Assembly: GCA_947381435.1 (NCBI GenBank)
Contig: CANCVE010000007.1
Coordinates: 21,826-85,825 of the forward strand
DNA length: 64,000 bases
Direction: 5' to 3'
DNA from: Chitinophagaceae bacterium
GTDB taxonomy: Bacteria; Bacteroidota; Bacteroidia; Chitinophagales; Chitinophagaceae
Numbering within the stretch: the stretch's first letter is position 1; every line of letters starts with the position of its first letter. A program made the position numbers and the translations under genes. Below, piece by piece: positions 5,490 through 62,462 of the stretch. The notes under the pieces were generated by a model. That model ran no database searches. It was not told where the DNA came from and saw only the letters and a program-made list of their open reading frames with translations.

Positions 5490-8400
5490 ATGTGTCAATT
5501 TTCTCATCTTCACGTGCATACCCAGTACTCCCTTTTGGATGGTGCGGCTAACATAAAGGACTTATACAAAAAGGCTGGCAAGTATAATATGCCTGCCATC
5601 GCCATTACCGATCATGGTAATATGTTTGGTGCGTTTGAGTTTGTGGCGCAGGCTTGGAAGGACACTAAAGTAATTGGCAAGGATGCTAATGGTAAGGATA
5701 TATTAGCCCCAAAAATAAAACCAATCGTTGGGTGCGAGTTTTATGTGGTGGCTGATAGACATGCAAAAGCATTTACCAAAGGTGAGAAAGACCATCGTTA
5801 CCATCAGGTGCTATTGGCAAAGAATAAACAGGGTTATCAGAACCTGATAAAGCTTACTTCGCTAGGTTATATTGAGGGAATGTATAGCAAATATCCGCGT
5901 ATAGATAAGGAACTGATACTTAAATATCATGAAGGATTAATTGCTACCACCTGTTGCATTGGGGCTTATGTGCCGCAAACCATCTTGCATAAGGATGAGG
6001 ACGCAGCCGAAAAAGAGTTTAAATGGTGGCTCGATTTGTTTGGTGAAGACTATTATATAGAGATTCAACGCCATGAAATAAAGGAACAGGAGATAATAAA
6101 TCAGACTCTTTTAAAGTTTGCCAAGAAGCATAATGTACCTGTTATTGCTACCAATGATAGTCACTACACCAATCAGGATGATTATAATGCACACGATATC
6201 TTGTTGTGTATTAATACAGGCGAAAAGCAAGCTACACCAGGTTTTGACGACTTCGTGAATGATGATACGCTGATTAAGAACCGCCGATTTAAGTTTCCGA
6301 ATGACCAGTTTTATTTCAAGACTCCCGACGAAATGAAGAAGCTGTTTAGTGATATACCGGAAAGTATTGACAATACAAATATGATTGTTGATAAGGTTGA
6401 AACACTGAACCTCAAGAAGGACATCCTATTGCCCAACTTCCCGATACCAGAATCGTTCAAGGTGCATGAAAGCGATACGCTTAATCAGTGGGAATACCTT
6501 AAACACCTTACCTATGAAGGAGCTAAGGAGCGTTACCACGAAATTAGTAGTGAGGCGCAGGAAAGGATAGACTTTGAACTTTCTACCATTAAGTTCATGG
6601 GGTTTGCAGGTTACTTCCTTATTGTAAGCGACTTTATCAAAGCAGGTCGGGATATGGGCGTGTTTATTGGTCCGGGTCGTGGATCGGCGGCTGGAAGTGT
6701 GGTTGCCTATTGTACTGGTATAACCAATATTGACCCAATTAAATATAACTTACTATTTGAGCGTTTCTTGAATCCTGACCGTAAGTCGATGCCGGATATT
6801 GACACTGACTTTGACGATGAGGGAAGGCAAAGAGTAATGGATTATGTGGTGCAGAAGTATGGCAAGTCGCAGGTGGCACAGATTATTACTTATGGCACGA
6901 TGGCTGCCAAGAGTAGTATTGCCGATGTGGCGCGCGTGATGGATTTGCCATTGGCTGAAAGCCGCGCATTGACAAAGATGGTTCCTGATAAACCAGGTAC
7001 CGACTTAGGTAGGGTATTGCAAGCACCACTAACCAAGAAAGATGGCGAGAAAAGCTTGGAAGAAAAAGAAGGTCTGCAACCAGAAGATTTGGATAATGTA
7101 CGCCAACTAAGAGAGATTTATAAAGGAACGGATATCAGGTCACAAGTACTGCACGAGGCCGAAAGACTGGAAGGAAGTGTGCGGAATACGGGCATACATG
7201 CGGCGGGAATTATCATTGCACCGCAAGATTTGACAGACCTTATTCCGGTTGCTACTTCGAAAGAATCGGAGTTATGGCTAACACAGATAGAAGGAAACAG
7301 CATTGAAGAAGCTGGGGTAATTAAGATGGACTTTTTGGGATTGAAAACCTTATCCATCCTAAAGACTGCCTTGGAATTGATAAAACAAAATCATGGGGAT
7401 GATATTGTAATTGATGATATTCCATTGGATGATGAGCTTACTTTTCAGTTATATCAAAAGGGAGAAACCAATGCCACATTCCAGTTTGAAAGTGTGGGAA
7501 TGCAGAAGTATCTACGCGAACTTAAGCCCGATAAGTTTGCGGATTTGATTGCGATGAATGCTTTGTACCGCCCCGGTCCTATTGCCTATATCCCTAAGTT
7601 TATATTGCGTAAACATGGTAAAGAAGAGATTACCTACGATGTGGATGATATGGAAGAATACCTAAAGGAGACTTACGGTATTACGGTGTATCAGGAACAG
7701 GTGATGTTGCTATCGCAGAAGTTGGCAGGGTTTACCAAAGGAGATGCAGACGTTTTGCGTAAGGCTATGGGTAAGAAACAGATTTCGGTACTTGATAAAA
7801 TGAAGAAGCAGTTTATTGATGGAGCAACTGCAAAAGGGCATCCAGCAGATAAACTAGAAAAAATATGGACGGATTGGGAGGCTTTTGCACAGTACGCCTT
7901 CAACAAATCGCACAGTACCTGTTACGCCTTTGTGGCTTATCAAACAGGATATTTAAAGGCACATTACCCTAGCGAATACATGGCGGCAGTACTTAACCAT
8001 GCAGGAAGTATTGATAAGATCACTTTCTTTATGGAAGAATGTAAGCGTATGGGAATCAAAGTTTTGGGCCCCGATGTTAACGAGTCGTTGAAAGGATTTG
8101 CAGTAAACAGTAAAAGACAGATACGATTTGGTTTGGGTGGACTAAAAGGCGCTGGTGATGCGGCAGTTGATTACCTAATAACTGAACGAAAAAAGAACGG
8201 ATTATATAAGGATGTATTCGAGTTTAGTGAACGTGTGGTAGGCAAAAGCGTTAATAAGAAATCGTTAGAAACATTTGCTTATAGCGGTGCTTTCGATTGT
8301 TTTCCTGAATTGCACAGAGCACAATACTTTTATGTTGCAGATGGGGATAGGACATCAGGACTGGAAAAGATAATTAACTACGGGCAATCAAAACTGTCTG

Positions 8401-9164
8401 CAGAAGCAACAACAGGAAGTAGCTTGTTTGGCGATTTACCTACAGCAATGGATGTCCCCAAACCTAAGATTGCTCCTTGTGAAGAATGGAATCTCACTGA
8501 AAAGCTGGACCACGAAAAAGAAGTAACGGGCATGTTTATGAGTGGGCATCCTTTGGATAATTATCGATTTGAATTGAGGCATTACGGTATTATGTCTTTA
8601 GCTGACTTCAATGAAATAAAGGAAAGTTTGACACTTTCACAAAATAATGCAGGGAAGAACTTTAAGTTAGCCGGACTAGTATCTGGCGCACAACACAGAA
8701 CAACCAAGACAGGTAAAAACTTCGGAATACTAGCCATTGAGGATTATACTGGCAAAACAGAACTTGCTTTGTTTGGTGAAGATTATCAACGATACAAACA
8801 ATACTTAGATCTTGGCAGAAGTGTATTGGCAACAGGGACTTTTAAAGCACCTTGGAAAGAAGGGGCAGCTTATGAATTTAAAATTAGCACCATGACACTC
8901 TTGGAAACTGCGAAACAAACAATGACTAAGAATGTGGAAATAAATATAAAGCCTGCTGCAATATCCAAAGACTTTGTTGATTTCATAACGCAAAACATCA
9001 AAAGTAATCCAGGTAAATCGTCACTTCGCTTTCATGTTTATGAACCAGAAGAAGACTTGAAGGTAAGCCTATTCTCAAGCGAAAAAGGCTTTACCATGAA
9101 TGATGATATGGCAGAGTTTCTACTCAACAATCTGGATGTAGAAGTAAGTGTAGGGCTAGCTTAG
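5490..9164 (+). CDS. dnaE: DNA polymerase III subunit alpha
   Basis: PHP domain start FSHLHVHTQYSLLDGAA; GPGRGSAAGSVVAYC; PDIDTDFDDEGRQRVMDYV; ALYRPGP; C-terminal OB fold. Confidence 0.98.
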   Translation: MCQFSHLHVHTQYSLLDGAANIKDLYKKAGKYNMPAIAITDHGNMFGAFEFVAQAWKDTKVIGKDANGKDILAPKIKPIVGCEFYVVADRHAKAFTKGEKDHRYHQVLLAKNKQGYQNLIKLTSLGYIEGMYSKYPRIDKELILKYHEGLIATTCCIGAYVPQTILHKDEDAAEKEFKWWLDLFGEDYYIEIQRHEIKEQEIINQTLLKFAKKHNVPVIATNDSHYTNQDDYNAHDILLCINTGEKQATPGFDDFVNDDTLIKNRRFKFPNDQFYFKTPDEMKKLFSDIPESIDNTNMIVDKVETLNLKKDILLPNFPIPESFKVHESDTLNQWEYLKHLTYEGAKERYHEISSEAQERIDFELSTIKFMGFAGYFLIVSDFIKAGRDMGVFIGPGRGSAAGSVVAYCTGITNIDPIKYNLLFERFLNPDRKSMPDIDTDFDDEGRQRVMDYVVQKYGKSQVAQIITYGTMAAKSSIADVARVMDLPLAESRALTKMVPDKPGTDLGRVLQAPLTKKDGEKSLEEKEGLQPEDLDNVRQLREIYKGTDIRSQVLHEAERLEGSVRNTGIHAAGIIIAPQDLTDLIPVATSKESELWLTQIEGNSIEEAGVIKMDFLGLKTLSILKTALELIKQNHGDDIVIDDIPLDDELTFQLYQKGETNATFQFESVGMQKYLRELKPDKFADLIAMNALYRPGPIAYIPKFILRKHGKEEITYDVDDMEEYLKETYGITVYQEQVMLLSQKLAGFTKGDADVLRKAMGKKQISVLDKMKKQFIDGATAKGHPADKLEKIWTDWEAFAQYAFNKSHSTCYAFVAYQTGYLKAHYPSEYMAAVLNHAGSIDKITFFMEECKRMGIKVLGPDVNESLKGFAVNSKRQIRFGLGGLKGAGDAAVDYLITERKKNGLYKDVFEFSERVVGKSVNKKSLETFAYSGAFDCFPELHRAQYFYVADGDRTSGLEKIINYGQSKLSAEATTGSSLFGDLPTAMDVPKPKIAPCEEWNLTEKLDHEKEVTGMFMSGHPLDNYRFELRHYGIMSLADFNEIKESLTLSQNNAGKNFKLAGLVSGAQHRTTKTGKNFGILAIEDYTGKTELALFGEDYQRYKQYLDLGRSVLATGTFKAPWKEGAAYEFKISTMTLLETAKQTMTKNVEINIKPAAISKDFVDFITQNIKSNPGKSSLRFHVYEPEEDLKVSLFSSEKGFTMNDDMAEFLLNNLDVEVSVGLA

Positions 9165-11021: not shown

Positions 11022-11095
11022 GGCGAGGTAGCTCAGCTGGTTAGAGCATCGGATTCATAACCCGAAGGTCGGCAGTTCAAGTCTGCTCCTCGCTA
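11022..11095 (+). tRNA. tRNA-Met (CAU), elongator type; prophage attachment site
   Basis: Cloverleaf GGCGAGG/CCTCGCT, D-arm, anticodon loop TTCATAA, T-arm GGCAG-TTCAAGT-CTGCT. Confidence 0.95.
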
Positions 11096-11101
11096 CAAGA
11101 T
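11054..11101 (+). repeat. attL, 48-bp direct repeat with attR
   Basis: ttcataacccgaaggtcggcagttcaagtctgctcctcgctacaagat, identical to 62415-62462. Confidence 0.95.
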
Positions 11102-11189: not shown

Positions 11190-12365
11190 ATGCTACAACT
11201 CTTTAACGGCTGTTCATGCAGCGAACCATCAGTTTTCCCAAAGAATTGGGATAAAACAGGCGCAAAGCTTGACAAAGACTGGCGCATTCAATACTACTTC
11301 TACGATCCCATCAATGCACCACAGGGAAAGCTATTTATACTTAAAGGAGGAATCAACCGCTTCAATACATTAAAGGAAAGAAGGGAGGGTATTAAAGTGA
11401 TAATGGATGAACTTCTTTATCTTCTCCAATATGAAGGTTTTAATCCGATCACAAAGACCAGATACGTTCCTACCAAGTCAATTGACATTGAAGCAACCAC
11501 CAAGTGGCTGGATGCGCTCAAATATGCCTTTGGAAAGATAACTGTGGAGAAATCTACTAGAAGTGATATGAAGTGCTGCTTAAAGGCAATAGCCGGAGCC
11601 AGTGATGAACTTCGCCTAAATGCTATGCAAGTAAGTCAGGTTAGAAGAAAGCATATAAAGTTGGTGCTGGAGCATCTAAACTCATCCCCACACAGATTTA
11701 ATAAGTTCCGATCATATCTAATGAGTCTTTTCAAAGAACTTGTTGAGATTGAGGCCACAGATTTAAACCCGGTTGTGGGTATCAGTAAAAAGAAAACAAT
11801 TGGCAAACTCCGGGAAATACTAACGCATGATGAACGCATACTTATTAATAACCACCTGAAGGAAAACTATTACAGCTTCTGGCGCTTCATGCAGATATTC
11901 TTCCACTCTGGTGGACGAATTGTGGAGCTGCTGGCCGTGAAGTGCTCAGATGTGGACTTAACAAAGCAACGCTACAAGACAATCATAAAGAAAGGTAGTC
12001 AGCAAAGAGAGGCATGGAAACCAATAAAGGATATCGCTCTTGATTTATGGAAAGAAGTAGTAGCCACTGGCAATGAAACTGATTATGTTTTCAGTGATGG
12101 GTTAAAGCCTGGTCCGCGATTAATTCGCTATGAACAGATTACAAGGAGATGGCGTGAGCATGTGAAGGTAAAGCTTGGCATCAAAGCAGACTTTTACAGC
12201 CTCAAGCATCTTAATCTTGATGAGACTGCCGAAGCACTGGATATTCAAGCTGCAGCAGCAATGGCTGGCCATACAACAACTGTTATCACAATGAAGCATT
12301 ATGCACTAGGGGAGAAGGAGCGCGCAATGGATAGGTTAAGGAAAGTGAGTAATGATTTTGCGTAA
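11190..12365 (+). CDS. int: Tyrosine recombinase/phage integrase
   Basis: Catalytic-region motifs HSGGRIVELLAVKCSDVDL, SLKHLNLDETAE, AGHTTTVITMKHYA; adjacent to attL. Confidence 0.93.
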   Translation: MLQLFNGCSCSEPSVFPKNWDKTGAKLDKDWRIQYYFYDPINAPQGKLFILKGGINRFNTLKERREGIKVIMDELLYLLQYEGFNPITKTRYVPTKSIDIEATTKWLDALKYAFGKITVEKSTRSDMKCCLKAIAGASDELRLNAMQVSQVRRKHIKLVLEHLNSSPHRFNKFRSYLMSLFKELVEIEATDLNPVVGISKKKTIGKLREILTHDERILINNHLKENYYSFWRFMQIFFHSGGRIVELLAVKCSDVDLTKQRYKTIIKKGSQQREAWKPIKDIALDLWKEVVATGNETDYVFSDGLKPGPRLIRYEQITRRWREHVKVKLGIKADFYSLKHLNLDETAEALDIQAAAAMAGHTTTVITMKHYALGEKERAMDRLRKVSNDFA

Positions 12366-17856: not shown

Positions 17857-17922
17857 TGTAAAATTAGAAAGTAAATATAATGTTTACTTTAAGTAAATAC
17901 TAAGAATTGTTAATAAAGCTAT

Positions 17923-36516: not shown

Positions 36517-36599
36517 TTGAAAATAAAGATAGGATGTAAATATAATGTTTACTATTTAAAACATATTCACAAGTGTTTAAAAGTTGGAATTAGCAAGAT

Positions 36600-40034: not shown

Positions 40035-40090
40035 TAATTACGTCTTATTATGTCACAAATGTAAATATAATGTTTACTTTTTTTGGCATT

Positions 40091-45709: not shown

Positions 45710-46669
45710 TTATTTTCTCAAACTTTCGCCCTCCAACAAAATGGGGTTCATCATTTCCCGAAGTCTGTCTCTAATACGGTTACCGTAAAGCTGCTCAATG
45801 CCGTTACCATCACAGTTGGTAGTAATAATCAGTCTGGTAAATGGTTGGCCTTGACTGTAGTAGTCCTCAATGAACTCCTTGAACCAAAAAATATCGGTAC
45901 CATAATGCTTAATTGGGTTCTGCTCTGTACCAACATCATCCAGCATCACCATCCCGTAAGGATTGATTGAGAACTTGCCAACCTCTTTCACTTTGTCACA
46001 TATCCTACCCATTGGGTAAACTTGGATAGGGAATATGGGATTCTGGCTAATTGCCTTGATGATTTCAGTTTTGCCGAGGCCTGCATCACCAGCTATCATC
46101 AACCCTTTTTTGAAGGAAAAGCCTAGCTCACTTTCGAATCGAATATCATTGCCAAAGAAGAAGCAGATGGATTTAATAAAGTCCTGCTGAGACTCTACAA
46201 TTTTGAACTCACCATGCTTTTGAAGAAAATGACGTTTAATAAGATTGTAGAAATAGTTAGCATCACATTGTCTGTACAGCTCTCTCCACTTTTCCACCTC
46301 TTCATCCTCTCGCTTCTTCCGATCATACTCAATACCAATAGCCCTTATTTTCCTTTTCAAAGCATCGGCAAGTACTGTATCATAATTTTCAAGCAATGAA
46401 TCTTTGTAACTGTCCCATTTAAGTTCAATATCCTGTGGATGTTCTCCCATTGAAATCCTGTTATTGAAAAAACGTTTCTTTTCACTCTCTAGGTAGTAGT
46501 CAATAGAAGATTGTTTTTCCTGTTCGGTAAGGCTACAATGGAGCTCTTGTTCCTGGTTGTGTTCTTGATGTATCGTGTGGCTTTTTTGCGCTATTTCCCC
46601 AACTGTTTTGAACTCCTCCATTTTGCTGATTGTTTTTTTTATTAAAATCATTGTTAGCCCATCTTTCAA
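45710..46669 (-). CDS. DnaC-like ATPase / helicase loader (start likely at MEEFKTVG)
   Basis: Walker A GDAGLGKTEII, Walker B MVMLDDVG, RLIITTNCDG. Confidence 0.85.
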   Translation of the reverse strand: MKDGLTMILIKKTISKMEEFKTVGEIAQKSHTIHQEHNQEQELHCSLTEQEKQSSIDYYLESEKKRFFNNRISMGEHPQDIELKWDSYKDSLLENYDTVLADALKRKIRAIGIEYDRKKREDEEVEKWRELYRQCDANYFYNLIKRHFLQKHGEFKIVESQQDFIKSICFFFGNDIRFESELGFSFKKGLMIAGDAGLGKTEIIKAISQNPIFPIQVYPMGRICDKVKEVGKFSINPYGMVMLDDVGTEQNPIKHYGTDIFWFKEFIEDYYSQGQPFTRLIITTNCDGNGIEQLYGNRIRDRLREMMNPILLEGESLRK

Positions 46670-47354
46670 GCCTTAGCTTCAGCTCCCAAGTTTTCTCTTG
46701 CTCGAATTTCATCTTGCTTTTTGACTTGTTTGGCTCTCGCCAATAGTCGAAGAAAGCTCTTAGGAGTTCTTTAGGGTAAACGTCTTTGTATCCGGCAATT
46801 GAATTGTAAAAGTCAGTTTCCCTTTTTTCTAAAGTCTCAATTGATTTTGGTGGGTGTTTGGGTGCGTCAGCACCAATAACAATTTCTTTTTCTTTAATTT
46901 CCTTTACTTTCCTTTGTGCTAATTCTTCCGTATTTATGGGCATTCCTTCCGTATTATTGCCCAATTCTTCGGAATTAATCAAACTAAATTCAGAAATTTC
47001 AGCCTTTTTCTTTGATTGCTTACAGATTAAGGAGTACCTATCTTGAATCCCTTTTGATGTTATTACCTTATTTTCATCGTACATATTTTTATTAAAAAGC
47101 CCGATACTGAAGCAACTTAAAATCACTTCCTTTATGTAGCCTTCTTCATACCCAGTCTTTTCCGAGATTATGAAGGGCAACTCATTATCCCACAACATGT
47201 AATACCCATTCTGATAGATATTGCAAAGCAGGAGAGTATAAATAGAAATCGATTTGCACCCCTGATATTTTATCAGCTTCCTAATTTTTATGTCGTCAAA
47301 AAAATTTACTTCCAAAGGGAAATAAGTCAATCCAACTTTAACTTTATTAGCCAT
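46533..47354 (-). CDS. DUF4373 (Lin1244/Lin1753-like) replication-initiator protein
   Basis: GLTYFPLEVNFFDDIKIRKLIKYQGCKSISIYTLLLCNIYQNGYYMLWD. Confidence 0.8.
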   Translation of the reverse strand: MANKVKVGLTYFPLEVNFFDDIKIRKLIKYQGCKSISIYTLLLCNIYQNGYYMLWDNELPFIISEKTGYEEGYIKEVILSCFSIGLFNKNMYDENKVITSKGIQDRYSLICKQSKKKAEISEFSLINSEELGNNTEGMPINTEELAQRKVKEIKEKEIVIGADAPKHPPKSIETLEKRETDFYNSIAGYKDVYPKELLRAFFDYWREPNKSKSKMKFEQEKTWELKLRLERWANNDFNKKNNQQNGGVQNSWGNSAKKPHDTSRTQPGTRAPL

Positions 47355-49180: not shown

Positions 49181-50956
49181 TTAACTAATTAATCCAATTC
49201 CAAACTTTCCTTCCAAGTTTGCTGCTATTTTTTTAATTCCTAATTCAGGGAAAGACTGGTTTCTACTCACAATCGAATCAGAAGTCCACCAGCTTCTATA
49301 GAATAAAGAGAGGGTATCAACTAGAATGTAGATGTCTTTAATAGCTTCATAATTAAATCCGTAAGAATCAATTTTTGCCCAAATGGTTTCCTTCCAAGAA
49401 ATATCATCTTCTATTTCTTCGCCATCAACATTTTTTGATAACTTGATTTCCCAACCCAATAATTCACATAGTCTCTTGACGAATACATCATCATCAGAGA
49501 ATTGCGTACGGGCGATATTTTCCTTTACAGGAGCTTTTAATAATTCAATATCAAAAGCTCCTCTTTGATAACTGCTAACTATTTCCTCCATTATGGAATA
49601 ATTCAGCAGTTTCATAATGTCTTGACGATTAACCGACTTTCCAACCTCTTTCTTTCTTAAAAGAAAATCCTCTAATTGTTCCCCATCTTCCTGAATTACT
49701 TCAATAATTTCTTCCTCTTCTTCTTCCTCCGAACCTTTGTTATTGATTGCATCATCAAGCCAAATAGTATCTCCGATTTTAATCTTTTGCTGGTACCATT
49801 TTGTAATTTCAGTGTAAATCCCAATTGTATTTGTCTCCTCCTCTGAAACATAATCTCTATATTCACCTTCACCCATCAAAAGCGGATCATTTGGGCTGTA
49901 AATGCATGAAATCAATTTTACCGTTTTCCCTTCTCCCTTATATTTTTCAATCAATCTATCTATGTGAGCAGTTTCCTTTTTCTTCCAGCAGTCTATATCA
50001 AAACACACATCATCATCCTTTACTTCCTCAAATAACAACTGGCGACACCCACTATGCTTAGTGCATTTTAAACAACTACCTGCAGCAGGAACTAATTGTG
50101 AATCTCCAGTAGGGAAAATAGCTTCACCTAATTTCAATTTGAAGGTGTCATTGATTAAGCGACGTATATAGGCAGGGTCAATTTCCTGACTGTTCTTGTT
50201 TGATATTACTGCCCATAATTTGGTTTGGTCTTCAATTGTAATCCTCGCAAATTGTTTTGCATGAGTAATAGAGAATTGACCAACTCTTACTGCGGCTTGC
50301 ATGTGAGGTATTACTTGCTGAAGTATAACTCTGTCATATACATACTTTGGACTTTTCCCAATTTTATCAGCAATCATCTCTGGAGTAGAAAGTCCTTTTT
50401 TAATCAACTCCTGAAAAGCAAAGCTTTCGTCCATCGGGTTCACATCTTCTCTTTGAAGGTTTTCAATGATCTGAAACTCAAAAGCTTCATCATCACTCAT
50501 TTCCTTCACTTGTGCCGAAATGGTTTCCATCTTCAAGTACTTAGCAGCCCATAACCTTCTGTGGCCATAAACAACCACATACCTTAATGGCTCAATACCA
50601 GAAGCAGGACGAATCATTATAGGCTGTAACAATCCGTGAAGCTTAATTGATTTTGCCAGTTCAATGCCAGTACTTTCATCCCAATTTGCTCTTGGGTTGT
50701 TACAATCTGGTAGAATCAAATGGACAGACACTTCCATAATTTCTCCAACTTTTTTCTCTTTACTCATCGTTACTTTTTTATGAATTTTTAAAATGTATTT
50801 GTTACAACTGTCTCGCTTTCTATATCGCTTTACTATTTGCCAGTTTACCTGCAGCTCGTATCTTTTGTCACATACCCTATTGATATAAATAACATGTCCT
50901 AACTGGTCAAGCTCTCCAAGAATCTTTCGGTATTTACGCTGGTTTGTTTCAGGCAT
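49181..50956 (-). CDS. ParB/RepB-like protein (start probably at MSKEKKVGEIMEV)
   Basis: GIELAKSIKLHGLLQPIMIRP, VVYGHRRLWAAKYL, IENLQREDVNPMDESFAFQELI. Confidence 0.88.
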   Translation of the reverse strand: MPETNQRKYRKILGELDQLGHVIYINRVCDKRYELQVNWQIVKRYRKRDSCNKYILKIHKKVTMSKEKKVGEIMEVSVHLILPDCNNPRANWDESTGIELAKSIKLHGLLQPIMIRPASGIEPLRYVVVYGHRRLWAAKYLKMETISAQVKEMSDDEAFEFQIIENLQREDVNPMDESFAFQELIKKGLSTPEMIADKIGKSPKYVYDRVILQQVIPHMQAAVRVGQFSITHAKQFARITIEDQTKLWAVISNKNSQEIDPAYIRRLINDTFKLKLGEAIFPTGDSQLVPAAGSCLKCTKHSGCRQLLFEEVKDDDVCFDIDCWKKKETAHIDRLIEKYKGEGKTVKLISCIYSPNDPLLMGEGEYRDYVSEEETNTIGIYTEITKWYQQKIKIGDTIWLDDAINNKGSEEEEEEEIIEVIQEDGEQLEDFLLRKKEVGKSVNRQDIMKLLNYSIMEEIVSSYQRGAFDIELLKAPVKENIARTQFSDDDVFVKRLCELLGWEIKLSKNVDGEEIEDDISWKETIWAKIDSYGFNYEAIKDIYILVDTLSLFYRSWWTSDSIVSRNQSFPELGIKKIAANLEGKFGIGLIS

Positions 50957-52662
50957 TACAACTTAGCTTTTGTAAAGAGATTGATGAATTCATCTACCAT
51001 GTTAGTCTCTACCTCTTCTACTGCACCAGTTACCTGATTAGCAATATTTCTCTTCTTATCAATAAGCTCATAGATGTATTCATCAATAGTATTGGCTCCA
51101 AGGAAATAGCCACTTTCAACAGGAAACCTCTGGCTAATACGGTCACAACGGCTTTCATCCTGTTCACAGTCAGCAGCGGTCCAGGGCAACTCATGGTGAA
51201 TAACCCTAGATGAAGCAGTAAGTGTAATCCCTACGCCACCAGACTTAATATTACAGATAATGACTTTTGTATCACTTGGGATGAAATCGTGACCAGTATC
51301 TTTATGATTCTCCAATCGAATGTTGCATTTTTTACATTTTTGGAAATCATGAACTGCTGCTTGTCTTTTTTCTTGTGGATCAGAACCAACTACTGTTACT
51401 GCATGAGGTAGGTGCTTTTTTAATTCGTCTACAATCTCTTTATGCCAACAGAACACAACTATCTTTTCGCCTGCATCGGTTACTTCTTGGATATGCTCCA
51501 AAACCTGTTCAATCTTTCCTCTGGCAGAAATCTTCTTTAGTATTCCAATTAATACCATAGCCTGACCACGAAGAGCTGTATCAATTTCACCTTCTGTTTT
51601 TTGAAGATTCTCTCTCAAGTATTCAATGAAGTTGTTTTCAGCTTTCACATACTCAGTACGATTTGAGATAGAAACCTTATGAATGTTTCTAGTCATTTTT
51701 GGCAAATCTTTCAACACATCCCTTTTTGCTCTTCTATAAAAGCAATGCTTATTCAATAAGTAATTGAGCTCTTTTAGGTTACTTGACTGAGTAGGGCCGT
51801 CACAATACCTGTCTACAAATCCTTTATATCCTCCAAAATTGTCAATCTGCTGTATGATTCCTAATTGTGGCCACAAATCAGCAGGTTTGTTTTGGATGGG
51901 AGTTCCTGTTAATCCAAGTATGTATTCTTTGCCTTTACAGATACCTGCTACTAGCTTTGATTGCATAGTTTTAGATGACTTACATCTATGAAGTTCATCA
52001 ATAATTACTGCATCAAATAGATTGATAGTATCTCTGAATTTGATATGATTCAACCTAAGTGGCTTGTCTTCTGGCTTATTAATGCTTTCAACAAAGTATT
52101 TTTTTAAGCTCTCATAATTAACTACGAAAACCTTACATATCCCAACACGGTAATATTGACCCCAGCTTATTTTAATCCTGTCGGTGATTTCCATTGCAGA
52201 CCATCCTGCATTCATTTTCCATTCATTAACCCAGTTCTCTTTTAATGTAGCTGGGCAAATGACCAATACACATTTAACATTAGCAGCAACAAGGGTTGCG
52301 ATACTTTGAAATGTTTTTCCGAGACCAGGCTCATCACCTACTATCACCTTCTTATGTTTCAATGCGTAAGCAACCCCTTGTGCTTGGTAGTGATATAATG
52401 AACGCTTTAAAGGAATTTCAATATCGAGTTCTGGTAATGGTTCAATCTCACCTATCTCAATGTTTTTTGTAGGTGCTGCTACTTTACCACCAATTTGCTT
52501 AGACCAATTCAATAATGCATTAGATGATTCTTTTGGTACAAACCAATTTTTCCTTGAAGGATTCCATTTTGCGCCGGGGATCATCTTTATTGCATCAACA
52601 AGCCAAGGCTTATAAACAAAGCTGACTTCATACCCCGTACTGATTTGTGTAAGTTCAAGCAT
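50956..52662 (-). CDS. SNF2-family DEAD/DEAH helicase
   Basis: VGDEPGLGKTFQSIATL, VIIDELHRCKSS, LTGTPIQNKPADLW, SGGVGITLTASSRVIHHELPW. Confidence 0.95.
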   Translation of the reverse strand: MLELTQISTGYEVSFVYKPWLVDAIKMIPGAKWNPSRKNWFVPKESSNALLNWSKQIGGKVAAPTKNIEIGEIEPLPELDIEIPLKRSLYHYQAQGVAYALKHKKVIVGDEPGLGKTFQSIATLVAANVKCVLVICPATLKENWVNEWKMNAGWSAMEITDRIKISWGQYYRVGICKVFVVNYESLKKYFVESINKPEDKPLRLNHIKFRDTINLFDAVIIDELHRCKSSKTMQSKLVAGICKGKEYILGLTGTPIQNKPADLWPQLGIIQQIDNFGGYKGFVDRYCDGPTQSSNLKELNYLLNKHCFYRRAKRDVLKDLPKMTRNIHKVSISNRTEYVKAENNFIEYLRENLQKTEGEIDTALRGQAMVLIGILKKISARGKIEQVLEHIQEVTDAGEKIVVFCWHKEIVDELKKHLPHAVTVVGSDPQEKRQAAVHDFQKCKKCNIRLENHKDTGHDFIPSDTKVIICNIKSGGVGITLTASSRVIHHELPWTAADCEQDESRCDRISQRFPVESGYFLGANTIDEYIYELIDKKRNIANQVTGAVEEVETNMVDEFINLFTKAKL

Positions 52663-52665
52663 TTA

Positions 52666-53154
52666 TTAAATATTTTCTTCGCTGAATTTTTCAGTTTCTT
52701 CTTCAAACAATGAAAGCTGTTGTTCTGGAGCTTTCTTGCCATTGAATAAATACTCATTGATTTCATAGATGGCAGCTTCTATTTCTTCTCCGAGAACACC
52801 AATTGCATGATATTCACTCTTTTCCCATTTTTGGAATGGGGTATTTAGGTTCACTATACCAAAATCATTCTCTTTACTACCAGATAGCGTGACACCTTCG
52901 TTTTCATTATTACCACCAATTGAGAAGCCTTTTACATCATAGATTTTATCATCCTCATCTATTTCTGTATTGTCACATAAATAAGCTAAGTGTTTAGGAA
53001 ACTTACTAAAGGCATCCTTTAAATCATTGTGGATGGGTACTGTGCAGGAAAGCTTTGTATCCTTTTTACTGTGCCATTGCAATTCTTCTGTGTACTCAAC
53101 TTCAAGGAATAGATCATCCTTGATTTTTGCTTTTTTAATTTTAACTGAATTCAT
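52666..53154 (-). CDS. Early phage protein with C-terminal beta-clamp-binding motif QLSLF
   Basis: KAPEQQLSLFEEETEKFSEENI*. Confidence 0.6.
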   Translation of the reverse strand: MNSVKIKKAKIKDDLFLEVEYTEELQWHSKKDTKLSCTVPIHNDLKDAFSKFPKHLAYLCDNTEIDEDDKIYDVKGFSIGGNNENEGVTLSGSKENDFGIVNLNTPFQKWEKSEYHAIGVLGEEIEAAIYEINEYLFNGKKAPEQQLSLFEEETEKFSEENI

Positions 53155-53156
53155 AA

Positions 53157-53441
53157 CTAGAATAATGAGGGTATTTGTGAAGTGGAAGTCTTCCTCGTTT
53201 TTTTAACTTCCACTGGGGTTACGATTAATTTTTCTGTATTTACTATTGTATGTTGGCTTATTTTTGAATCGATACTACTCAGCTTATCTGCAGGAACTGG
53301 ATAGATGTTACCTTCTAAATTTTCCACTATCACCACATTCCCATGTTCATCACTAACAATACTCACTTCTTCACCTTTATAGCCATAGTAATGTGATGGT
53401 TTACAGCTGCTCTTAATATCTTCAGTTAGGTATGGCATCAA
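53157..53441 (-). CDS. Early phage protein ending in clamp-binding-like QIPSLF
   Basis: KKTRKTSTSQIPSLF*. Confidence 0.55.
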   Translation of the reverse strand: MMPYLTEDIKSSCKPSHYYGYKGEEVSIVSDEHGNVVIVENLEGNIYPVPADKLSSIDSKISQHTIVNTEKLIVTPVEVKKTRKTSTSQIPSLF

Positions 53442-53638: not shown

Positions 53639-53956
53639 TTAGGCTACTGCTTTTTCGAAATACCCAATAATGTGTGTCAGTATTACTCTAACATTGATAT
53701 TATCAGCATGAATCCTTTCCCAAACTGCTTTATTATCTTTCCATCTGTACACTTCAATAACGTGAGGCTCTATGGTGCGAGCTTTGTAAATGATGATGGG
53801 TTGCCTGTTATTTATTGGCGCAGTAATTATCCTTGATTGAAAGGCTACTTCCTTATTGGGGAACCCTCCTATAATCTCAATTAAGGTATCAATCTGTTTT
53901 ATTGCACTATCTTTTGTGTAAGGCATGTTAAAAAGGTTTTTTGTTGAAATTTTCAA
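53639..53956 (-). CDS. Hypothetical phage protein
   Basis: 105-aa ORF. Confidence 0.5.
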   Translation of the reverse strand: MKISTKNLFNMPYTKDSAIKQIDTLIEIIGGFPNKEVAFQSRIITAPINNRQPIIIYKARTIEPHVIEVYRWKDNKAVWERIHADNINVRVILTHIIGYFEKAVA

Positions 53957-54671
53957 TTACAAGTCCAGCATCAGCAACATGTACTCTTTTTCCTGTCTGA
54001 CTTTCAACAGCAGATTTAAACTGGTCCGCATTGCTATTACCATCACTCAAGTGAATCAGCACAATGTTGTTAACCTGGCTTAAATCATTTGCTTCTAAAG
54101 TCTTCAGAGTAGTCTCAATACTCATGTGACTAGTGAAAATTCTATCCTGTAAGAACTCTGGGAGCTTTCCATCCTCAACTCTCTTTTGAATAATCCCTTC
54201 ACTAAAGTTTGCCTCAATTATTATGTTATTGATATTCCTGAATTTGTTACTTACATAGTAACTGTCGGTGATGAAAAGAATATTACCTGTCTCAGGGTGA
54301 TTGATGATGAATCCTAAAGGTTCAACACAATCATGCTGGATGGCGAATGGTAATACCTTAAATGAACCAACCTGAAACAATGTATTAGCAGCAATATGTT
54401 TAATGCGATGGTGCTGCTTATATCCCAATGCTTTGAAAGTACCCTTGGAGGCATAAACATCCACCCCGGCTTTTAATAAGTCTATCAATGAGAAACTATG
54501 GTCTTTATGTTCATGGGTAAGTATGCACCCAGATACTTTGTTAAAAGAAAAGTCCAAAGCCTTTTTGATATCCTTAATATTCACCCCACACTCAATGATG
54601 AGTGCTTCCGTATCATTCTCCAAGATGTAGCAGTTTCCTTTAGAACTGCTACCTAGTACTTTCAAATCCAT
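53928..54671 (-). CDS. MBL-fold metallo-hydrolase
   Basis: KVLGSSSKGNCYILEN, LTHEHKDHSFSL, IIEANFSE, HMSIETTLKTLE. Confidence 0.9.
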   Translation of the reverse strand: MDLKVLGSSSKGNCYILENDTEALIIECGVNIKDIKKALDFSFNKVSGCILTHEHKDHSFSLIDLLKAGVDVYASKGTFKALGYKQHHRIKHIAANTLFQVGSFKVLPFAIQHDCVEPLGFIINHPETGNILFITDSYYVSNKFRNINNIIIEANFSEGIIQKRVEDGKLPEFLQDRIFTSHMSIETTLKTLEANDLSQVNNIVLIHLSDGNSNADQFKSAVESQTGKRVHVADAGLVIENFNKKPF

Positions 54672-55372: not shown

Positions 55373-57670
55373 TTATGCTGCTTTTTTGATTTTTGGTTGG
55401 CCGACACTCAGTGAGGATCCTTCTGAAACAATCAGGTTGACTATTTGCGAATCACTGTCTATCAGCTTCACAACTGATTCCCGGTTGTCGATGAAGATTG
55501 GTGCAGAAACACCATAATGACGGCTAAGTGCATTGATAATATCTATCCCGGCATTGATACGGCTTGCATTGTTGGCATCAGAGAAAGGAACACCATTGAT
55601 AAGTGTCTCACAGCATTCCGTCTCACCACCGTTTACCTGAGTTGCAAACAGTTTGAACTTCACCATTGAGAACTTACCATTGAGCTTTGCTTCCATTGCT
55701 TCTATCTTAGCCTTGGTAAATTGCATGATGGCAAACTCAGTTCCTTCCAATGCACTAAGTTCCTGAACTAGTTTAGTCTCCTGTTCCCTAAGTTCTTGAA
55801 TACGGTTATTGCATCTGGCAATGGTATCCTCATCATTCAATTGCTTGTTTAATTCCAGGATCATCTCAGTTGCTTCATTGCGCTTTTGCCTGAGTTCCTC
55901 ATTGGAAGCAATAGGAGGGAAGACTAATTCAGCTATCGGATTGGCTTCCAGTTCGGCAAGTTTTAATGACAATGAATTATATTCTGCATTGTATTGAAGT
56001 ATAGAGTAAACGATGCTTTCAATTGAAGCTTTCGGTGCATTGGCTTCTAGTTTAAGATTATCAATATGCTTACCCTGTACCAATAACTCAGCTTCCAAAT
56101 CCGATACAACTTTGCTACCATTTGTTATGCGAGTATCCAAGGCAGCTATTTCAGCTTTGACAGCATTTATCTTCTCAATAAGTTGGTTAAGCTTCTTTGA
56201 CTTATTAGAATTGAATACCTCAGCATAATGAGTGCGTTCGTTTCTTTTGGCTGTAATCTTTCCCTCAATATTGTCAATTTCATCATACGCACTATTGCCC
56301 TTAGCTTTTATTTCCTTGAGGCGCTCTTCTTTATCGGCATTGAATCTAGCTTTCAATTCAGCCTTTTTAAGAACTATATTGTCAGTAGGTAGTGACTGAT
56401 TACATGATGGACAAGAGAAATCTACATTATCAAAGGAAAGTTCCTCAGCGTTGATTCTTTCAATTTCTGCAGCAATATTATCAATCAATTGATTCTTTAC
56501 TGCAATCTGTGCTTCAAGTCCAGCAATCTCATTGTTGAAACCTTCCTCATTGAAATCATTGGTGCTAGCTTCTGTAGTTTGATACTGAAGTTTTAAATCA
56601 TCCAATTCACCCTGCTTAGTTTCCCTGTCTTTTTTAAGGCTGTTCAAGCTAGATGTATACTTGTCCTTTTCAGCAACCTTATCATCGTATGTGCGAGTAG
56701 CTGAATTTATGTCAGCCATTAACTTATTACCAGCTTCCGATGCCTCAGTCTTGGCAGCAAACTCTATATTTTGAATTTCAGTCTTGATACTGAAGATTGA
56801 ATTCTGCCTTGCCTCTTTCTTTTGTTGATGCTCATTGATGAGCTTTGTGCGCTTATCATTTTCAAGTACAGCCAAAGCAGACTCATCATCAATAGACTTC
56901 TGTAGTTTTAATGACTCTTGGGTTAAGTCGTCAATTTTGAAGCGTATTGCTTCAAAGTCCCTATCCTCCGGCTTTCCTTTCGTAACTTCATCGATACGGC
57001 TGGGGATGCTTTCAGCCTCATCTTTAATCCTTTTCTTTTTTGCAGCAATTTCACGTTTGAACTCATCAACAGATTTGTTCTGGCTAAAAGCTGTCTTTAG
57101 TTCCTCAAGGTGTGGCTTGCTTTTGCCATTGATTAATGACTCAAGTATCACATTGTTGTCAATTTCGCCTGCAATAGAGGTAAGAGTGTTTCTACGGTCC
57201 TGCCAAGGAACAGAGTTGAAATAGAAAGGGTTAGTGATTAACTTGAATACTGGCTCATCAACTATGGCCTTAATCTTAACCTTGAACTCAGACTCTTTTA
57301 ATGGAACATCATTCCAGAAATATATATTCTCATCACCAGAGTAATCCGTTTCAGTGGATCCACGTCGTGTAACCCACTTTTGCCTTAATACTTTACGAAC
57401 TACGATATCCTGACCATCAATATGGATGGTTGCAGCAACTTCCGCTTCTAAATTCTTGATGAACTTGTTGCTTGAGTCCAGGCGTTTGATTTCAAACTTG
57501 CTTGCATCATTGCTATTCTTACCAAAGAACAGCCAAAGGAAGGCATCCATGATGGTTGTTTTGCCTGTACCATTGTCACCAAAGATGTTAGTGACATGGT
57601 TAAAATCTGATTCAAAGCACTGAATGCCCTTGAAATTTGTAATCTTTACTCTTTTTAAGTAGATTTGCAT
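55373..57670 (-). CDS. SbcC/Rad50-like AAA ATPase
   Basis: GDNGTGKTTIMDAFLWLLFG, long coiled coils with CPSC hook-like motif, coupled with MBL hydrolase. Confidence 0.88.
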   Translation of the reverse strand: MQIYLKRVKITNFKGIQCFESDFNHVTNIFGDNGTGKTTIMDAFLWLFFGKNSNDASKFEIKRLDSSNKFIKNLEAEVAATIHIDGQDIVVRKVLRQKWVTRRGSTETDYSGDENIYFWNDVPLKESEFKVKIKAIVDEPVFKLITNPFYFNSVPWQDRRNTLTSIAGEIDNNVILESLINGKSKPHLEELKTAFSQNKSVDEFKREIAAKKKRIKDEAESIPSRIDEVTKGKPEDRDFEAIRFKIDDLTQESLKLQKSIDDESALAVLENDKRTKLINEHQQKKEARQNSIFSIKTEIQNIEFAAKTEASEAGNKLMADINSATRTYDDKVAEKDKYTSSLNSLKKDRETKQGELDDLKLQYQTTEASTNDFNEEGFNNEIAGLEAQIAVKNQLIDNIAAEIERINAEELSFDNVDFSCPSCNQSLPTDNIVLKKAELKARFNADKEERLKEIKAKGNSAYDEIDNIEGKITAKRNERTHYAEVFNSNKSKKLNQLIEKINAVKAEIAALDTRITNGSKVVSDLEAELLVQGKHIDNLKLEANAPKASIESIVYSILQYNAEYNSLSLKLAELEANPIAELVFPPIASNEELRQKRNEATEMILELNKQLNDEDTIARCNNRIQELREQETKLVQELSALEGTEFAIMQFTKAKIEAMEAKLNGKFSMVKFKLFATQVNGGETECCETLINGVPFSDANNASRINAGIDIINALSRHYGVSAPIFIDNRESVVKLIDSDSQIVNLIVSEGSSLSVGQPKIKKAA

Positions 57671-58289: not shown

Positions 58290-58439
58290 TCATATTTAAA
58301 AGAACTGTTTTAAAAGTTGGCTCACTAAGCCACCGATTTTACCCCTTTCTGGTTATTTCTTTAACCGCCATAAGCTGTAGGGGCTTAGCCGCATATCTAC
58401 CTTCTACGTTTGCGATTCCACATAATGAAGGGGAATAAG

Positions 58440-58511
58440 TTGCGAGGATGGGACTCGAACCCATGACCTTCGGGTTATGAGCCCAACGAGCTACCGCTGC
58501 TCTACCTCGCG
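58440..58511 (-). tRNA. Phage-encoded initiator-type tRNA-fMet (CAU)
   Basis: CGCGAGG...CCTCGCA-A with C1:A72 mismatch; anticodon arm TTGGG-CTCATAA-CCCGA with three G:C pairs; T-arm ATGGG-TTCGAGT-CCCAT. Confidence 0.93.
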
Positions 58512-62414: not shown

Positions 62415-62462
62415 TTCATAACCCGAAGGTCGGCAGTTCAAGTCTGCTCCTCGCTACAAGAT
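62415..62462 (+). repeat. attR, 48-bp direct repeat with attL
   Basis: identical to 11054-11101. Confidence 0.95.

Follow-up and report, generated by a model that had tools for sequence, protein, structure and literature searches.

The window analyzed here is a stretch of 64,000 nucleotides (G000:C7:21826-85825) from the 4.88 Mb draft genome of a member of the Chitinophagaceae; relatives and gene content likewise indicate a host within the Bacteroidota. It contains two identical 48 bp repeats, the left of which lies over the 3' end of a tRNA-Met gene and has a phage integrase gene just inside it (Table 1), and these perfect attL/attR repeats at the tRNA gene, together with the adjoining integrase, identify the DNA between them as a temperate prophage, some 51.4 kb in length, that uses the tRNA-Met gene as its insertion site. 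Just beyond the prophage lies a host gene that we take to be dnaE, encoding the alpha subunit of DNA polymerase III. A further tRNA-Met gene is located inside the prophage, and a 30 nt repeat with the 3' end TGTAAATATAATGTTTACT occurs in three intergenic copies in the late region; these copies may possibly serve as operators or late promoters.

Table 1. Features of the window and of loci carrying relatives of the two proteins. Positions without a locus prefix are those of the window.
Feature	Position	Strand	Remarks
Host DNA polymerase III alpha (dnaE), presumed	5490..9164	+	read from sequence
tRNA-Met	11022-11096		insertion site
attL	11054..11101		prophage left end
Phage integrase	11190-12365
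30 nt repeat, three copies	17859-17888, 36524-36553, 40049-40078
DnaC-like helicase loader	45710-46669	-
Replication initiator	46533-47354	-
ParB-like protein	49181..50956	-	ParB_N + HTH_ParB
SNF2-family helicase	50956..52662	-	next gene downstream of the 162-aa gene
162-aa protein	52666..53154	-	phrog_9513/phrog_6141 family; globular domain (4-138) and disordered acidic tail with motif
QLSLF	52705..52719	-	residues 146-150 of the 162-aa protein; CAG CTT TCA TTG TTT, read 52719 to 52705
93-aa protein	53157..53438	-	SH3-like barrel (~1-50), low-complexity linker, C-terminal motif
QIPSLF	53160..53177	-	last six residues of the 93-aa protein; CAA ATA CCC TCA TTA TTC TAG (53177-53157)
Metallo-beta-lactamase-fold hydrolase	53928..54671	-	same strand and gene run as the 162-aa and 93-aa genes
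SbcC-like ATPase	55373..57670	-	same strand and gene run as the 162-aa and 93-aa genes
Extra tRNA-Met	58439-58511		inside the prophage
attR	62415..62462		prophage right end
Divergent phage beta sliding clamp	L022:10144-11232		contig IMGVR_UViG_3300049825_000986
PRTRC system protein E domain	L022:11237-12598		downstream of the phage clamp gene
N6 DNA methyltransferases	L007:491-1243, L015:6508-7269, L025:7014-7829, L026:8877-9695, L028:7861-8673, L034:6648-7460
Coiled-coil-like proteins	L009:3161-3403, L022:15792-16037, L032:9606-9833, L036:10540-10737
RecT	L034:4943-5890
PcfK-like protein	L050:11083-11502		Bacteroides phage BS-TP3
RuvC-like protein, presumed	L051:3072-3611		Croceibacter phage P2559S
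DnaB-like helicase (~516 aa), presumed	L032:10864-12369		and three other loci

The early operon of the prophage holds two small genes, for proteins of 162 and 93 aa. Also among the early genes are those for the SbcC-like ATPase, the metallo-beta-lactamase-fold hydrolase, the SNF2 helicase, the ParB-like protein, the initiator and the helicase loader. The ORF of the second spans 53157-53441, and an in-frame ATG at 53438 is the likelier start, giving the 93 aa product. The 93-aa, 162-aa and SNF2 helicase genes are arranged head to tail with gaps of only 2-3 bases, so they almost certainly share one transcript. The phage carries its own replication initiator and DnaC-like helicase loader, which implies that it relies on the host replisome for replication. 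A scan of larger prophage ORFs revealed no polymerase among those covered, and neither Pol A nor Pol III alpha is present in any of the 22 records that contain relatives, all of which is consistent with the view, put forward in a sequence-only reading of this DNA, that the phage encodes no polymerase.

The same reading had drawn attention to the motifs QLSLF and QIPSLF in these adjacent early proteins, and both were confirmed on the minus strand. Published clamp motifs have the form Q-aliphatic-x-[L/M]-[F/L] or Q-aliphatic-x-[L/M]-x-[F/L], the tightest being QLxLF and QLxLxF, and are flanked by acidic residues or a carboxylate (PMC11139829). The QLSLF of the 162-aa protein is of the canonical beta-clamp form, and the same pentamer is given for PolC in PMC3919608 and PMC12309361. 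It is found near, rather than at, the C-terminus (tail peptide KAPEQQLSLFEEETEK), and the 12 residues that follow it, which include EEETEKFSEE, are mostly acidic.

Homologues of the 162-aa protein were drawn from viral contigs, genomes and named phages, and dereplication at 70% identity left 39. Their tails were scored for Q-x-x-[LMI]-[FL] or Q-x-x-[LMI]-x-[FL], with composition-preserving shuffles of the same tails and the reversed motif as background. The motif is present in 31 of the 39 tails, against 1.8 ± 1.3 in the shuffles (maximum of 7 in 1000) and two for the reversed motif. Five-residue forms (QLSLF, QLDLF, QLELF, QLEMF, QMEMF, QVDMF, QQELF) and six-residue forms (QLSLEF, QLELDF, QLDLDF, QQELPF, QLEMAF) both occur, and the family alternates between precisely the pair of forms published as binding with high affinity, QLxLF and QLxLxF. 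The variant QLELDF, present in L004, is also that of the phage-display winner LQLELDF quoted in PMC11139829. The eight tails that do not match the strict pattern are mostly near-misses (QLELDI, QTIDMF, QPELDM, QLGFDF), with the motif lost in three homologues (L038, L052 and, effectively, L011). All 36 aligned members of the family (alignment A3) match phrog_9513, the function of which is unannotated, and in this alignment Q146 is nearly invariant whereas the flanking tail is not.

The AlphaFold2 model of the 162-aa protein has a mean pLDDT of 86, with residues 4-138 predicted at high confidence to form a beta-beta-beta-alpha-alpha-beta-beta-beta-alpha fold, while the tail falls below 70 (mean of 66 over the motif block, then 49). 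The fold is shared with unannotated phage proteins only; no solved structure matches it, and no relative was detected in Pfam, NCBIfam or the PDB (sequence search of the PDB at E ≤ 1, fold search at E ≤ 0.001). Human PURA was the top Foldseek match to the domain, and was rejected at a TM of 0.16; matches to PCNA and UL42 were dismissed as noise (E ~0.3), and an internal duplication of the domain was rejected (hhalign probability of 0.1%).

For the 93-aa protein, AlphaFold gives an SH3-like barrel and a disordered tail (pLDDT 47-65). Foldseek assigned the barrel a probability of 1.00 against isolated SH3 domains, with a target TM of 0.65-0.79 over matches of about 55 residues, but with E-values of only 0.006-0.05; a search of the phages collection with this protein gave no match. 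The tail peptide, KTSTSQIPSLF, ends in a free carboxylate, so that both motifs stand in disordered tails with the kind of flank that known clamp motifs have. QIPSLF itself misses the canonical form, since it has a serine at position 4, and if read as a pentamer, IPSLF, it lacks the glutamine, as does AMSLF of the clamp-loader delta subunit. The likeness to a Q-x-x-S-L-F form of the delta subunit, claimed earlier, is a loose one, because the 2024 review (PMC11139829) gives the delta motif as AMSLF and does not count a glutamine.

With this atypical QxxSLF spacing, QIPSLF is the odd one of its family. Relatives of the 93-aa protein carry QKTLF, QTSLF, QNTLF, QINLF, QTNLF, QSTLF, QTTLF or QCSLF, that is Q-x-x-L-F mostly without an aliphatic second residue, like the QGSLF of the host Pol IV. 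Thirty distinct members were sampled, of which 17 have a linker and tail, and 13 of these 17 terminate in the motif (0.06 in shuffles). Short members of the family stop directly after the barrel and have neither linker nor motif, which indicates that the motif is a detachable module. Conservation in homologues, on which the earlier proposal had been staked, is thus beyond chance in both families. The two genes are found together, both with the motif, in L002/L018, L003/L020, L009, L015, L016, L063 and others.

The host genome has a single match to DnaN. Although it shares only 27% overall identity with the E. coli protein, its peptide-binding pocket is identical at R152, T172, H175, R176, L177, P242, V247, N320, V361, M362, P363 and L366, and the changes L155M, V360L and M364L are conservative. 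Motifs of the host's own clamp clients are QGSLF (Pol IV), QGNLF (UmuC-like) and QQSLF (MutL), and this Q-x-[S/N]-L-F dialect is close to the QxSLF, QxTLF and QxNLF of the 93-aa family. In the presumed host DnaE, GSSLF is found at what we take, by eye, to be the expected site of the clamp motif.

A conserved Q-x-x-L-F might instead pack against its own domain or a phage partner. The site does lie directly past the last helix, at a fixed place 2-8 residues beyond the last helix-capping lysine in the 31 matching tails of the 162-aa family, and the AlphaFold2 confidence there is intermediate rather than very low. However, the switch between five- and six-residue spacing runs in step with the clamp-motif classes, the motif also ends, at a free C-terminus, the proteins of at least three unrelated families (the 93-aa proteins, N6 methyltransferases and coiled-coil proteins, see below), and host clamp clients have the same form, all of which makes such packing very unlikely. 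Given the conservation and form of the motifs, the disorder of the tails, the host pocket and the phage-encoded clamp described below, both tails very probably bind host DnaN. This upholds the first part of the earlier claim, that these are host-clamp motifs; a block of the clamp is unsupported.

The neighborhoods of the relatives are conserved. In 29 of 34 loci a homologue of the SNF2 helicase is no more than eight genes away from the 162-aa family member, a ParB-like neighbor is seen in 19 of the 34, and RecT, exonuclease and NinB genes are also found. These surroundings bear on the other suggestion of the sequence-only reading, that the proteins redirect host DnaE. They would in that case be surrogate adaptors for processivity that bring DnaE, or Pol IV, to the phage DNA, and this would suit a phage in which no polymerase has been found; clamp motifs are common to polymerases, and a DnaQ-like exonuclease adjoins the 162-aa family gene in P2559S and FL-1 (genes beside it in L009 and L011 were read from sequence and are presumed to be of this type). 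A clamp client, however, competes with DnaE for one pocket and does not recruit it, no DnaE-binding element was identified, and the genes constantly nearby encode the SNF2 helicase and ParB-like or recombination proteins rather than polymerase factors. Steering of a host polymerase is accordingly considered unlikely, and redirection of DnaE is unsupported in the form proposed; the neighborhood points to tethered accessory factors of recombination and replication.

One relative encodes a sliding clamp of its own. In L022 the 162-aa homologue is followed by the SNF2 helicase and then, two genes further downstream than the homologue itself, by a divergent beta clamp. The clamp scores 55.9 bits to PF00712 and 39.3 bits to PF02768, above the cut-off, and matches solved clamps to an E-value of 6e-17. 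Its peptide pocket has diverged, with most canonical residues lost, and the tail of the accompanying 162-aa homologue reads QIEIAF. The gene downstream of the clamp has a PRTRC system protein E domain, which connects this group of phages with the PRTRC cassette of plasmids.

In the full set of retrieved loci, which comprise 1094 ORFs (834 when dereplicated), the motif terminates 26 proteins, compared with 5.1 expected and five for the reversed motif. All six members of an N6 DNA methyltransferase family end in QLLLF, QLSIF or QASLF, and small coiled-coil-like proteins of 65-81 aa end in or near QGKLF, QQNLF, QGEIF or QKELF. The C-terminus of a RecT protein in L034 is QSTLFPY, that of a PcfK-like protein of Bacteroides phage BS-TP3 is QQMSLF, and a protein of Croceibacter phage P2559S that we take to be RuvC-like ends in QKELFKDAN. 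From their termini, these three are possible additional clamp clients. A class-wide look at PcfK-like proteins yielded two genomes only, with the ending ALTLFDL, which has no glutamine. A different type of ending, resembling the acidic tip of SSB (DDLPF, EDLPF or EMPF), is seen in a cluster of proteins of about 516 aa that are presumably DnaB-like helicases, and RecT homologues often terminate in DDDF.

Taken as a whole, we think it fairly likely that both proteins are host-clamp tethers of the phage recombination and replication module. Each would consist of a small folded domain and a flexible tail with a clamp-binding motif in or near its end, and the motif would dock into the hydrophobic pocket of host DnaN, on which the phage would depend because its own initiator and DnaC-like loader work with host Pol III. 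The folded domains would then hold the SNF2 helicase, the ParB-like protein and the SbcC-like ATPase at clamp-loaded DNA on phage forks, and in relatives the cargo may be RecT, exonuclease or NinB. The identity of the delivered partner is a guess from synteny.

Tethering or recruitment is more likely than inhibition. Tails that fill the DnaN pocket could displace host Pol III as well as repair factors and so stop host replication, and small early proteins with motifs of the high-affinity type would be suited to this; phage-made clamp inhibitors are known from the literature, and the inhibitor gp168 of the staphylococcal phage Twort is likewise a small early protein aimed at the host clamp. Even so, gp168 acts by occluding the DNA channel and not via a peptide motif, and no gp168-type link emerged from PDB-wide searches by sequence (E ≤ 1) or fold (E ≤ 0.001). 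Moreover, blocking is made less likely because phages that are temperate or lack a polymerase themselves need the clamp for their own Pol III replication, the genes belong to a conserved recombination cluster rather than to a takeover region of accessory genes, and the motif is carried by several gene families of these phages that are unrelated to one another. We regard a role as clamp blockers as improbable.

As tethers, the proteins resemble bacterial clamp clients (Pol IV/DinB, Pol II, PolC, Hda and, with an internal motif, MutL) in having Q-x-x-[LM]-F or Q-x-x-[LM]-x-F on a flexible segment, an acidic or carboxylate flank and a conserved host clamp pocket to bind, but differ in being phage-encoded, by two adjacent genes, with domains unrelated to polymerase or repair families. 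Transposases of insertion sequences and transposons also bind the sliding clamp, a use of the clamp motif by mobile elements on host replication (PMC4549789, PMC5371812), and the likeness lies in mobile-element proteins that bear such a motif; the 162-aa and 93-aa proteins, in contrast, are not transposases and sit within a phage recombination and replication cluster. An interaction of E. coli RecBCD or RecF with the beta clamp is described in two papers (PMC13254535, PMC10287930), and recombination machinery is coupled to the clamp there as well, although by host enzymes rather than by phage tethers with conserved tail motifs. No description of either family, or of clamp tails in Bacteroidota phages, was found in the open-access literature searched. 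Both families add new clients to a kind of interaction that is already known, and their folded domains are undescribed.

More tentatively, and with somewhat less than even confidence, several unrelated protein families in a large group of polymerase-less Bacteroidota phages may each have acquired clamp tails, making the clamp a scaffold of the phage DNA factory and the organizer of its recombination and replication module. This would take in the 162-aa, SH3-tail, N6 methyltransferase and coiled-coil families, and sometimes RecT and PcfK-like proteins, and the clamp would be that of the host or, in one phage, perhaps a self-encoded one with a diverged pocket. The analysis provides a testable function for two phage families without an annotated one (phrog_9513 among them), and a likely route by which Bacteroidota phages that lack a polymerase plug accessory recombination and replication proteins into the host replisome. 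Should several phage genes without common origin indeed converge on the clamp, it would serve phages in general as a docking hub, in the way that it already serves transposases.
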